Shown here one piece after another: positions 5,058-15,554 of a stretch of DNA of 64,000 nucleotides. The notes below the pieces were generated by a model. That model saw only the letters and a list, made by a program, of their open reading frames with translations. It did no database searches and had not been told where the DNA came from. The DNA comes from Fimbriimonadales bacterium (lineage in GTDB: Bacteria > Armatimonadota > Fimbriimonadia > Fimbriimonadales > GBS-DC), in the NCBI GenBank assembly GCA_025998675.1, contig AP024673.1:709221-773220 (forward strand). Reading direction: 5' to 3'. The stretch's first letter is position 1. Each line of letters begins with the position of its first letter. The position numbers were made by a program, and so were the translations under genes.

Positions 5058-5906
5058 ATGATGCGAAGGCGTCGATGGGGGTTTGTGCTGGGGTTATCGA
5101 GCGTCGCGCTGGTGCTCGCGGGGTTCGCCGTCGGGCGCTGGACGCGCACGCGCTGGGTGTCTGTGCCTGCGCCTGTCGCTGAACCCATCCGTATCGCCGT
5201 GCTGGGCGACTTTCACCTCGTCGACGAGACCAGCCTGCGCCATGCACGCGCCTGCCTGCAGACGGCGATGGCGCAACAGCCCGATGTGATTCTGCTGGTG
5301 GGCGACTATGTGCATTCGCGCCCCGGGCTGCCCTACCTCACGCGCGCGCTGGAGGGCGTGCGCGCGCCGCTGGGGGTCTACGCCGTGCTGGGCAACCACG
5401 ACCACTGGGCAGGCAGGGACGCCGTGATTCGCGCCCTGCGCGAGGCGGGCGTCGTCGTGCTATGCGAGGAGAGTCGCACCTTGCGCAAAGGGGACGCACG
5501 CCTGACGCTGATTGGCATCGACGATTTGTGGAGCCGCTCGCCAAACTGGGAGCGCGCCTTTCGCAGCGCGCCGTCGCGCCCTGACCATCCTGTGATTCTG
5601 CTCTCGCACAATCCTGACGCCGCGCTCTCGCCGTACCGCGACCGCACGACGCTCATCGTGGCGGGGCACACGCACGCGGGGCAGGTCTGGGCGCCCACGA
5701 CCGCCCACCGCGCGATGCAACGCCTCTTCGGACGCAGCTATATCCCCAAGACGCGCTACGGAACTGCGCATCCCTACGGGCTGTATCAGGAGGGCGACAC
5801 TTTCGTCTACATCACCAGCGGCGTCACGCACGGGCGCTCAGTGCCTCGCTGGTACACGCGCCCCGAAGTGAGCATTATCGAACTGACGCCTGAGCAATCG
5901 GATTGA
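5058..5906 (+). CDS. Membrane-anchored metallophosphoesterase (YkuE/YaeI-like)
   Basis: 282 aa. An N-terminal membrane segment (about residues 7-27) precedes a calcineurin-like phosphoesterase domain with all metal motifs: GDFH, GDYVH, GNHDHW, SHNPD and GHTHAGQV. YkuE/YaeI/LpxG relatives act on lipid or cell-envelope substrates; the substrate here is unknown. The start may be 5058 or the next codon pair, 5061, which fits a leaderless start better. It converges on the PIN-domain gene with 6 nt between the stops. Confidence 0.87.
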   Translation: MMRRRRWGFVLGLSSVALVLAGFAVGRWTRTRWVSVPAPVAEPIRIAVLGDFHLVDETSLRHARACLQTAMAQQPDVILLVGDYVHSRPGLPYLTRALEGVRAPLGVYAVLGNHDHWAGRDAVIRALREAGVVVLCEESRTLRKGDARLTLIGIDDLWSRSPNWERAFRSAPSRPDHPVILLSHNPDAALSPYRDRTTLIVAGHTHAGQVWAPTTAHRAMQRLFGRSYIPKTRYGTAHPYGLYQEGDTFVYITSGVTHGRSVPRWYTRPEVSIIELTPEQSD

Positions 5907-5912
5907 AGAAGG

Positions 5913-6365
5913 CTATATCAGCTGAATCCCATCAGCGGTAAACGCCTGAAAATCGCTTACATTCAGCGTGAATAGTTTGTCCAGCCCATGCCCGCGCATG
6001 TAGGCAATTAAACGCGCATCGTGCGCGCGGCGCCCTACAATCTGAAGTTTTACGCAGAGTCGCTGCCACTCATCGACCATACCTGGGGGGTCTTCAAGCA
6101 GAGTAAAGCTCTCTCGAACTGCTGTCAGGCATCGCTCAGCCGCCTCGCAACTCAACCCAAACCCGTTCCTATCTGTGGGGCGTGTCAGCACAACCCACAA
6201 CTCATACAAACACTGCGGTGCAATACAGAGCTGGTATCCCTGATGGCGCAGTGCGATGACTTTTTCGATTACAGAAAGATTCTGTGGGTGAACAGGATCG
6301 AGGTAGGCGATAAGAACGCAAGTGTCCAGCAAGACAGCTCTGCCGCTTTCAATAGCGTTCCTCAT
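5913..6365 (-). CDS. PIN-domain ribonuclease (VapC-like)
   Basis: 150 aa, a typical VapC length. The first acidic motif LLDTCVLIAYLD, the central YELWVVLTR and the late HDARLIAYM-LNVSDF motif match a PIN-domain Mg-dependent RNase, usually a toxin. Its start overlaps the end of the upstream unknown gene by 17 nt, so the two are translationally coupled. No small VapB-type antitoxin is present; the 274-aa partner occupies that position instead. Confidence 0.82.
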   Translation of the reverse strand: MRNAIESGRAVLLDTCVLIAYLDPVHPQNLSVIEKVIALRHQGYQLCIAPQCLYELWVVLTRPTDRNGFGLSCEAAERCLTAVRESFTLLEDPPGMVDEWQRLCVKLQIVGRRAHDARLIAYMRGHGLDKLFTLNVSDFQAFTADGIQLI

Positions 6366-7173
6366 AGAAGTTCTCGCTCCGTGAGGCGCTTATGGCTCCT
6401 GCAGCAGGCGCGGGTACGCTCCCTGCGAGTAGAAAAATGCGATAGGTACGCGCCAGCTCATCCTGTCCGTCATACACAACGACTGCCTCGCATTTCTGTG
6501 TGTCCCACTGCCAGACACAGTCGTAGATGCCCCAGAGTTCCTCTCCCCAGCGCACAGAAGCCCAGGGGTTCAGCAGAATTGTCATAACCGCTACCTCAAG
6601 GGACTTCCTCGACTGTACTGTTGCGCAAACTTCTTCCAGCGGCGTGAAGCGATGCTCTCTGCGGGAGTCGCGATCGAGGACTCGCTGGTAGACCTCTGCC
6701 GCGTCGACCTGTTCCAGAACTGCGAACGCGCTAATCTGGGGAGCGCGCTTCAGTTCGGCAACTATTCGGTCAGCCGCCAGAGGGACAGGAGGACACCCTG
6801 CCGTTGCCAGCAGGTAGGGTAGCCCGTGCTGCATCACAGGGAGTGCTTGCGCGGCTTTACGCGCGATTCTGCGGGCGATTTCTTTGAGAACTTCAGAAGG
6901 CTCCTGCTCAACGGGTAGCGCCCACAGATCTTCGGGCGCTGATTTTTCTGCATTGACCGCCAGATCTATCGTTGCCCTCTCGATAACGAGCGAGGCGTCA
7001 ATCGCTGCAACAGGGCTGCCCGCTTCCGAGAGAATCACCGCATCTGGTTTTTTGTCGCCGAATTGGTACTCTTCCCAGGCGTAGCGCCAGCCGCGCTCGC
7101 TCAGGTAGCGTTTCAACAGCGCCTCAAGCGCCTGCTGGTCAATCACGCTGCGACGCTCTTTTTGGACTGCCAT
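6349..7173 (-). CDS. Unknown protein coupled to PIN gene, possibly degenerate PD-(D/E)XK fold
   Basis: 274 aa from ATG 7173. Upstream codons would overlap sufT, so the later Met was chosen. The N-terminal 90 residues have the look of a restriction-type nuclease core: WRYAWEEYQFGDKKPDAVIL, then a strand ending VAAIDASL, where a nuclease would have E-x-K. The C-terminal half shows no family I recognise. Starting 10 nt after sufT and overlapping the PIN gene by 17 nt, it could be an unusual antitoxin-like partner, but this is inference from position only. Confidence 0.6.
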   Translation of the reverse strand: MAVQKERRSVIDQQALEALLKRYLSERGWRYAWEEYQFGDKKPDAVILSEAGSPVAAIDASLVIERATIDLAVNAEKSAPEDLWALPVEQEPSEVLKEIARRIARKAAQALPVMQHGLPYLLATAGCPPVPLAADRIVAELKRAPQISAFAVLEQVDAAEVYQRVLDRDSRREHRFTPLEEVCATVQSRKSLEVAVMTILLNPWASVRWGEELWGIYDCVWQWDTQKCEAVVVYDGQDELARTYRIFLLAGSVPAPAAGAISASRSENFYEERY

Positions 7174-7183
7174 TTCGCTTGTC

Positions 7184-7501
7184 TCATACGGGAAACCCAA
7201 ACGCCTGCAGCATCTGGCGACCTTCGTCCGAGATGCGTTCGGGCGTCCAGAGCGGGTCGAAGGTGAACTCCACATGCACCTCTTTGACGCCGGGGATGCT
7301 CATGGCGCGGTCGCGGATTTCGTCGGCGAGCATATCGCCGACGGGGCAGCCGGGCGAGGTAAGCGTCATCAGGATCGAAACCTCGCCCGCGTCGCTGACC
7401 TGCAGGTCATAGACAAGCCCGAGATCCGCGATGTTCAGCGGGATCTCGGGGTCGTACACATCGTGCAGGATTTCCCACACCTGGTCGTGCAGCGTGTTCA
7501 T
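7184..7501 (-). CDS. sufT: MIP18/DUF59 iron-sulfur assembly factor (SufT-like)
   Basis: 105 aa. DPEIPLNIADLGLVYD and the conserved LTSPGCPVGDML Cys motif, followed by VxVEFTFDPLWTPERIS, define the MIP18 family that helps deliver or mature Fe-S clusters. The start overlaps the htpX stop (ATGA), so it is translated as part of the htpX operon. Confidence 0.9.
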   Translation of the reverse strand: MNTLHDQVWEILHDVYDPEIPLNIADLGLVYDLQVSDAGEVSILMTLTSPGCPVGDMLADEIRDRAMSIPGVKEVHVEFTFDPLWTPERISDEGRQMLQAFGFPV

Positions 7502-8355
7502 GCGATGCGCACCCCTGAAGTCATCGCTTCCAGTCGGCGCACGCGCTCGGCGACGGGCGGGTGCGTGCTGAAGAGCGCCATCAAGCCGCCGCCGCGCAGC
7601 GGGTTCACGATATACATATGCGCGGTCGCAGGCTGGGCATGCTCGTTCGGGATACGGTGCGCCGCCGCCTCCAGCTTGCGCAGCGCAGACGCCAGTCCGA
7701 CGGGCGTGCCTGCAATCTCCGCGCCGACCTTATCCGCCTCGTACTCGCGGGCGCGGGAAATCGCCAGCTGCACAATCATCGCCGCAATCGGCGCGATAAT
7801 CACCAGCGCCAGCGCCGCCAGCGGGTTGCCCCCTCGATCGTCGCGGCTGCCAAACAGCAGCGTCGCGTAATAAAACATATGCGCCAGCGCGGAAATCGCG
7901 CCCGCAATCGTCGCCGCAATCGCCATAATCAGCGTGTCGCGATTCTTGATGTGCGCCAGCTCGTGCGCAATCACGCCCTTGACTTCCTCGTAGTTCATCA
8001 TCTGGAGCAAGCCCTGCGTGACGGCGACGACGCCATGCTGCGGGTCGCGCCCCGTCGCGAAAGCGTTCGGCTGCATCTCGGGAATCAAATACAGGCGGGG
8101 CATCGGCATGTTCGCGCGGTGCGTCATCTCACGCAACATCTGGTACAGTTCAGGCGCCTGCTGCTCCGAGAGCGGCTGCGCGCCCGTCATCGCAATCACC
8201 AGCTTATCGCTGAACCAGTATGAGCCGAGATTCATAATCGCCGCAAACACCAGCGCGACGATGATGCCCGTCTGACCACCCAGCATGTTGCCAATCCAGA
8301 CCAGTATCAGCGTCAGCCCTGTGAGCAACAGACCTGTTTTCAACATATTGAGCAT
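7498..8355 (-). CDS. htpX: M48 membrane zinc metalloprotease HtpX
   Basis: About 285 aa. Two N-terminal membrane segments are followed by the zinc motif HELAHIKN, another membrane hairpin and a downstream Glu in REYEADK, the standard HtpX layout. It degrades misfolded inner-membrane proteins. ATG 8355 was chosen because a GGAGGG site sits about 9 nt before it; the TTG two codons earlier would be too close to that site. GGTATAAT at 8377-8384 is the probable -10. Confidence 0.93.
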   Translation of the reverse strand: MLNMLKTGLLLTGLTLILVWIGNMLGGQTGIIVALVFAAIMNLGSYWFSDKLVIAMTGAQPLSEQQAPELYQMLREMTHRANMPMPRLYLIPEMQPNAFATGRDPQHGVVAVTQGLLQMMNYEEVKGVIAHELAHIKNRDTLIMAIAATIAGAISALAHMFYYATLLFGSRDDRGGNPLAALALVIIAPIAAMIVQLAISRAREYEADKVGAEIAGTPVGLASALRKLEAAAHRIPNEHAQPATAHMYIVNPLRGGGLMALFSTHPPVAERVRRLEAMTSGVRIA

Positions 8356-8376
8356 ACGCAATACCCTCCACGCCCT

Positions 8377-15097: not shown

Positions 15098-15340
15098 ATG
15101 CGAAGCAAGAAAACGCTTCTCCCATCGAGACGGTATACAGCGGTCATTCTCAAAGAGGATGCCTGGTACATCGCACGCTGCATCGAGCTGGGCGTCACGA
15201 CGCAGGGACGCACACTGGACGAGGCGCGCGCGAACCTGCAGGAAGCCGTCGAACTCTATCTGGAGAGCTTCGGCGAAGAGCTTCCCGACAGCACGCAAGA
15301 GGTGCTGCTGTACCCTCTGGAGGTTTCGATGCATGCCTAA
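15098..15340 (+). CDS. hicB: HicB-family antitoxin
   Basis: 80 aa. The partial RNase-H-like HicB fold is seen as YTAVILKEDAWYIARCIELGVTTQGRTLDEARANLQEAVELYLE. There is no C-terminal DNA-binding HTH or RHH domain, so this is a short HicB that may not autoregulate by itself. It overlaps hicA by 8 nt. Order hicB-hicA is the reverse of the E. coli operon but common elsewhere. Confidence 0.9.
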   Translation: MRSKKTLLPSRRYTAVILKEDAWYIARCIELGVTTQGRTLDEARANLQEAVELYLESFGEELPDSTQEVLLYPLEVSMHA

Positions 15341-15554
15341 ATTGCCCGTACTGTCTGGAAAGGAGCTGGTGCGCGCTCTCCAGCGGGCGGGATTCGAGGT
15401 TGTGCGTCAGAAGGGCAGTCATGTGAGTTTGCGCAAGGGCGACCGCAGAACGGTTGTCCCGTTACACGATGAGCTGGCAAAGGGGACCCTGAGAGACATT
15501 CTGAACCAGTGCGGTCTGACGCGCGAGGAACTGCAGCAGCTCTTGCAGGATTAG
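15333..15554 (+). CDS. hicA: HicA-family mRNA interferase toxin
   Basis: 73 aa. A double-stranded-RNA-binding-like fold with the catalytic His in QKGSHVSLRKGDRRTVVPLHDELAKGTLRDIL. It cleaves mRNA when free of HicB. ATG 15333 lies inside the hicB end, so translation is coupled. The HicBA pair sits between two short homologous repeats. Confidence 0.92.
   Translation: MPKLPVLSGKELVRALQRAGFEVVRQKGSHVSLRKGDRRTVVPLHDELAKGTLRDILNQCGLTREELQQLLQD

Follow-up and report, generated by a model that had tools for sequence, protein, structure and literature searches.

What a 274-amino-acid protein does in the place of a small antitoxin is the question raised by a cassette at positions 5907–7183 (minus strand) of the window, the 64,000-nucleotide stretch of a Fimbriimonadales genome analyzed here. 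The downstream gene (5913–6365, minus strand) encodes a PIN-domain protein of 150 amino acids, a predicted VapC-like RNase toxin, and the upstream gene (6349–7173, minus strand; ATG at 7173, stop codon ending at 6349) encodes the 274-amino-acid partner, a predicted antitoxin. As the initial annotation held, both open reading frames (ORFs) lie at these positions and on this strand and overlap by 17 nt (6349–6365), the PIN ATG being located within the Tyr-Glu codons of the C-terminal tail of the partner. This layout is that of VapBC systems with small antitoxins, in which the PIN toxin gene likewise lies downstream of, and overlaps, the antitoxin gene in a two-gene cassette; unlike in those systems, the antitoxin would have 274 residues rather than about 80, and its body is predicted to be restriction-endonuclease-like. 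The pair is probably a VapBC-type (type II) toxin–antitoxin module, the antitoxin of which joins a degenerate PD-(D/E)XK body to a VapB-like tail.

The partner and PIN genes belong to a minus-strand run of four close genes that also includes those for an M48 peptidase (7498–8361) and an FeS-assembly protein that we take to be SufT-like (7184–7501). The partner ORF starts 10 nt past the stop of the SufT-like gene, and on the other side of the cassette lies a metallophosphatase gene (5058–5906, plus strand) that is convergent with the run. Three other pairs have the same gene order as the window, with overlaps of 17, 11, and 11 nt (the G014 overlap is 11 nt from the first ATG and 14 nt from a codon upstream), so that the two genes overlap in all four pairs. 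The gaps between the upstream same-strand gene and the partner start are 10, 51, 6, and 4 nt in the four pairs (12 nt in G014 if the partner ATG is used instead of TTG). Because these gaps are so short, there would be little room for a promoter of the partner's own, and an autoregulating DNA-binding domain would find little target. Conservation at the first, second, and third codon positions between the window and G008 alleles is 0.635/0.738/0.433 for the partner and 0.74/0.74/0.393 for the PIN gene; the third position is the least conserved, and both ORFs therefore look selected. We also considered whether a small antitoxin might be concealed in a different reading frame ahead of the PIN gene, and rejected this: apart from the large gene, the only ORF called there has 42 amino acids and ends near the PIN start.

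The PIN protein scores above the Pfam cut-offs of PF01850 (26.5 bits; cut-off, 23.6) and PF13470 (28 bits; cut-off, 27) and below that of NCBIfam TIGR00028 (30.4 bits; cut-off, 73.6). Asp14, Glu55, Asp116, and Asp138 (D14, E55, D116, and D138), which we take to be the catalytic acids, are unchanged across the PINs of all four pairs. In PDB sequence searches, the PIN profile gave no match at E ≤ 0.01, and one PIN that is paired with a small antitoxin matches VapC 5k8j at E 0.0024. We infer that the protein is an RNase and that it is toxic.

At E ≤ 1e-18, 113 genomes of the order yield 28 PINs of this clade, a G012 fragment at a contig end (L054) being left out. The expectation that a large protein takes the place of a small antitoxin at this locus agrees with their distribution: the ORF upstream of the PIN gene is small in 24 of the 28 (75–157 amino acids, counted from the first start and in some cases probably over-extended) and encodes the large partner in the other four. 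Among eight small ORFs scanned, one has an AF2212-like match over the Pfam cut-off, one a UPF0175 match just under it (26 versus 27.9 bits), and one a sub-threshold match of ribbon-helix-helix type, and matches of the others are weak or absent; a PDB sequence search with one small antitoxin gave chance-level rows alone. The bodies of the small ORFs differ, and their ends are alike, for example LRREHLYDE, SREAIYED, and KRDSFYVEESK. The pattern [FLIM]Y with at most seven residues after it is present in 23 of the 24. With an Arg shortly before, it is found in 17 of the 24 small ORFs (the Arg is missing from seven tails and the Tyr from one), in all four large partners, which represent two related pairs rather than four independent cases, and in none of five stand-alone homologues of the partner. 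The window partner ends in SRSENFYEERY and the other large partners in SRSEDFYEERY, SRASGFYDE, and SRASGFYDE. In the window, the tail corresponds to residues 261–274 (ISASRSENFYEERY; 6352–6393, minus strand).

In two background sets of mechanically called ORFs of at least 100 amino acids, which may overlap by a few proteins, the pattern with Arg fits 3 of 140 ends, all of them copies of the partner (hence 0 of 137), and 2 of 149 ends, namely one antitoxin and the window partner (hence 0 of 147). A profile built from 23 small tails alone gives the window partner tail 14.68 bits, a score that 7 of 100,000 random 24-mers match or exceed; it is the top score among 140 background proteins, the partner itself included, and lies inside the leave-one-out range of the small tails. 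The G008 tail is intermediate (8.44 bits, equaled by 249 of 100,000 random 24-mers), and those of G016 (4.67 bits; 1744 of 100,000) and G014 (1.25 bits; 8203 of 100,000) are weak when taken alone. The stand-alone homologues score from −3.7 to −5.6, except that of G068, where a score of 7.3 is due to the inner LLYDG stretch of the family, not to the C-terminal end; the tail profile is therefore not fully specific.

As an independent check, 31 genomes from another class of the phylum yield 11 PINs, two of them without an upstream ORF; the tail with Arg is present in eight of the nine upstream ORFs (two of the nine were called at 233 and 238 amino acids and are possibly over-extended), and the ninth has Cys for Tyr. 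Among the best 8 of 11 PF01850 matches in the window's own genome, one belongs to the clade and has the tail, and the ORFs upstream of the seven non-clade PINs, a few of which may not be true antitoxins, have no such tail. The overlapping PIN ATG could explain part of the Tyr-Asp/Glu conservation. The [FLIM]Y pair is also kept in seven small antitoxins that do not overlap their PIN genes (L055, L050, L074, L081, L082, L079, and L084), and three of these (L055, L050, and L082) keep the Arg as well. In the AlphaFold2 model of the partner, residues 257–274, which include the tail, have a pLDDT below 50. The tail is thus predicted, on the strength of its sequence, to be the toxin-binding segment of the partner. 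The proposal of a new toxin–antitoxin type in the initial annotation stands as regards the body of the antitoxin; because small antitoxins paired with PINs of this clade have a similar C-terminal tail, the system is probably of VapBC type and not a new type.

The partner has no match in Pfam, NCBIfam, or PADLOC up to E 10, and the Pfam scan at this limit finds in its 274 residues no sign of the small DNA-binding N-terminal domain of usual VapB. The AlphaFold2 model, made from four sequences, has a mean pLDDT of 76 and a pTM of 0.76 and contains helices at residues 13–26, 94–115, and 130–142 and strands at residues 30–33, 45–48, 54–60, 120–124, and 149–157, in the order H13–26, E30–33, E45–48, E54–60, H94–115, E120–124, H130–142, E149–157. 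That order fits the PD-(D/E)XK core, and residues 12–224 (6502–7140, minus strand) form the predicted restriction-endonuclease-like body. Placing the G016 protein first gave a second, poor model (pLDDT 50), which was set aside. The best structural match is 2inb of the XisH family (Z 9.0, rmsd 3.1, 118 aligned), followed by 2okf (Z 8.9), AF1548 (8.2), a CdiA-CT domain (8.1), NucC (7.8), and many restriction enzymes. A Z of 9 lies little above 7–8, the usual range of the tool without a clear relative, and unrelated folds (acetyl-CoA carboxylase and ketopantoate reductase) also appear in the list at Z about 5–6. Foldseek with the partner model returned nothing at E ≤ 0.001, and a PDB sequence search with the partner profile gave chance-level rows alone. 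The predicted restriction-endonuclease-like fold is made persuasive by the consistency of the match list, its individual rows being modest.

Glu17, Pro43, Asp44, and Gln109 (E17, P43, D44, and Q109) are the same in all nine homologues aligned. In the eroded nuclease motif of the window partner (6991–7047, minus strand), P43-D44 is kept and the expected E-x-K reads D59-A60-S61, the Lys being gone; the replacement of E-x-K by D-A-S, as initially annotated, is thereby confirmed in the alignments, and the nuclease-like N-terminus proposed there fits the structural matches. At the same place, the G008 partner has G-A and then a gap, so that the acid is lost too; E-V-S is found in G014, G016, and a further G008 copy (G008:C36), E-V-E in G092, E-V-T in G068 and G170, E-I-A in G052, and E-V-K in G138, the most distant homologue. 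No PIN-coupled copy has a Lys there. The likeliest superfamily of the body is PD-(D/E)XK, with members of which (XisH, AF1548, and NucC) it shares the predicted core order, the P-D motif, and the first-helix Glu; unlike them, it has an eroded E-x-K, an extra C-terminal tail, and a coupled PIN gene. DNA cleavage by the window partner is doubtful.

A possible mode of action is provided by Shigella VapBC, in which the C-terminal tail of VapB wraps VapC, with Arg64 reaching into the acidic active site and aromatic residues packing there (PMC3384007). By analogy, the 274-amino-acid partner would be the antitoxin that neutralizes the PIN RNase toxin, its disordered C-terminal tail SRSENFYEERY lying at the active site of the PIN protein or close to it and Arg265 and Phe269-Tyr270 blocking the pocket in the fashion of a VapB tail. 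The order of the residues differs, as the Shigella tail has the aromatic and then the Arg, whereas the tail of the present partner has the Arg and then the aromatic (PMC3384007). The degenerate PD-(D/E)XK domain would have taken the place of the usual small N-terminal antitoxin domain in this PIN clade; it probably does not cleave DNA and may stabilize or position the antitoxin, or bind nucleic acid. The 17-nt overlap may couple translation of the toxin to that of the antitoxin. Release of the PIN protein could occur via proteolysis of the partner, antitoxin proteolysis having been reported for VapB15 of Synechocystis (PMC5924515), or via a ligand of the body.

That PIN genes are paired with diverse antitoxins is already apparent from the PIN-associated families of Makarova et al. 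(2009), the tables of which include RHH, AbrB, PHD, COG2442, COG2886, COG2856, COG5302, COG2880, COG1753, and MerR; unlike in the present pair, none of these is a restriction-endonuclease-like partner (PMC2701414). Nor does a restriction-endonuclease-like VapC antitoxin appear in the titles and opening lines of abstracts among the matches listed from the open-licence PMC literature. In antitoxin domain exchange of the Panacea type, parts of antitoxins likewise join other domains, and one antitoxin domain neutralizes dozens of toxin domains (PMC8832971, PMC10440598); the present case, in contrast, has a short tail common to different bodies for one PIN clade. The pair suggests that evolution transferred a short segment able to block the toxin to a body of different, enzymatic origin, and because the tail sits on such a body, antitoxin searches confined to small DNA-binding proteins would miss pairs of this kind. 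The tail motif offers a simple handle for finding more hidden antitoxins of this PIN clade.

A search for the same gene pair in other genomes, as the initial annotation proposed, finds it in 4 of 18 genomes of the family (Armatimonadota), namely those of the window, G008, G014, and G016. The pairs occupy three different sites; G008 shares the window site, and those of G014 and G016 are elsewhere. Among genome contigs, an alignment of the partner (A1) retrieves three named relatives, two Armatimonadetes MAGs and 'Bacterium HR15' (HRbin15), and a single sequence (P0001) gives 132 pattern matches and no relative. Viral contigs searched with A1 give 21 pattern matches and no relative, and tblastn finds no match in plasmids with three family members or in phages with one. 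In 291 genomes of the phylum, a profile search brings in five more homologues, all of them distant (G092, G068, G052, G170, and G138), besides weak matches in G255 and G276; those in G075 and G095 (E 0.002–0.004) were dropped, being absent at E ≤ 0.01 in later searches and surrounded by ORFs that look unrelated. Within the 4.9–9 kb examined around each of the five, there is no match to the PIN-clade profile (best E 0.57). Homologues without the PIN gene, named in the initial annotation as evidence against the pairing, thus exist at a distance; because the tail is missing at their end, they do not refute it. Two further copies look damaged: that of G008:C36 has its C-terminus cut off, and in G007 a C-terminal piece of the partner alone is found. 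Neither has the tail, and the 9.3 and 7.2 kb examined, respectively, contain no match to the PIN-clade profile. Directly behind the G008:C36 homologue lie a DNA methylase gene and a TdeIII-type restriction enzyme gene (L020, 4159–7160). The stand-alone homologue of G092 shares 32 nt with the SLFN_AlbA_2 gene downstream of it (L041, 2934–4857). The partner body family may pair with other effectors.

The anatomy of the pair would be identical if it were a sensor–effector system, in which the dead nuclease domain binds a trigger, such as DNA that is foreign or damaged, and then frees the PIN protein, leading to abortive infection. As this is a special case of the VapBC-type module favored here, the odds of the two overlap. 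NA-iREase1, a Pfam family of inactive restriction-endonuclease defence domains, is matched by a neighbor of the G170 homologue, and defence-type genes lie near some stand-alone or truncated homologues; the neighbors in the window (FeS-assembly protein, M48 peptidase, and metallophosphatase), however, are not defence genes, and a sensor role is rather unlikely. If the dead nuclease body does sense something, restriction-type domains and RNase toxins would be joined in one switch, and an ordinary toxin–antitoxin pair would become a nucleic-acid-triggered immune switch.

Nearby genes also bear on a two-nuclease defence module, envisaged in the initial annotation, in which the partner would cut nucleic acid and the PIN protein RNA, jointly against phages or plasmids. 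The stand-alone homologues of G092 and G170 adjoin an SLFN_AlbA_2 gene and a DNA methylase/Mrr gene, respectively, and the truncated G008 copy adjoins the TdeIII-type restriction system; the body is nuclease-like by its structural matches and keeps the four invariant residues, the distant G138 homologue retains E-V-K, and a Lys elsewhere in the partner could in principle replace that of E-x-K. This module is nevertheless improbable and finds no support in the motif: catalytic residues are lost in the window partner (D-A-S) and more so in that of G008 (G-A and a gap), the PIN-coupled copies are all without the Lys, and, given the tail, an antitoxin role is the simpler interpretation.

The VapBC-type reading, in which partner and PIN form one unit, fits the behavior of the cassette at its site. 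The SufT-like gene was found in 15 of the 18 family genomes searched; it is followed by the cassette in two (G000 and G008), by other sequence in ten, by a contig end in one, and in the remaining two (G009 and G011) directly by the metallophosphatase gene, with 4 nt between the stops. Presence of the cassette in G000 and G008 and its absence from G009 and G011 indicate that the partner and PIN genes come and go together at this site. Codon 197 of the large gene is an in-frame ATG, from which a short internal product of about 78 amino acids, a size that would fit the usual VapB, could in principle be made, and this product could be the real antitoxin, with the body incidental; the body is, however, kept in all four pairs with conserved residues of its own, which makes such a product quite improbable. 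That the genes are chance operon neighbors, the large one unrelated to the PIN gene, as the five stand-alone homologues in the phylum might suggest, is the least probable reading of all, because the order is the same and the genes overlap in all four pairs at three different sites, the pair is absent as a unit from two genomes, the tail is shared, and the truncated G008:C36 copy and the G007 fragment lack both the tail and a nearby PIN gene.

For the VapBC-type module, the divergence of its alleles bears on its history. Between G000 and G008, synonymous differences amount to 73% in the partner and 80% in the PIN gene (pS 0.73 and 0.80), compared with 32–40% in the flanking SufT-like, metallophosphatase, and plsX-like genes, and amino-acid identity is 56% for the partner and 59% for the PIN protein, compared with 85–96% for the three flanking genes. 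Such values point to the exchange of older alleles and not to descent in place, or else to unusually rapid divergence. The four PINs with large partners form two pairs in the PIN tree; both lie in a cluster of seven with low support (81/89), the other three members of which (L060, L075, and L078) have small antitoxins. Most simply, the tail of a small antitoxin would have been acquired by, or fused with, a degenerate PD-(D/E)XK protein that had stood alone, and this protein would then have displaced the antitoxin. G017 carries two near-identical antitoxin–PIN copies (L056 and L059), in one of which the PIN gene has two stop codons.

Two other features of the window may be recorded. Adjoining plus-strand ORFs at 50–385 and 422–1714 have near-identical C-terminal ends with a repeated segment of the DNNGCVDDADLLAVLFAFG type, and are apparently a tandem duplication, the first copy of which may start outside the window; the longer ORF (422–1714) has no Pfam match at E ≤ 0.001. 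At 15098–15554 (plus strand) lies a HicBA-like pair, in which a 73-amino-acid HicA (PF07927, 72.9 bits) is encoded behind a protein of 80 amino acids that matches DUF7387 over the cut-off (36.8 bits) and UPF0150 below threshold, and that presumably plays the role of HicB.
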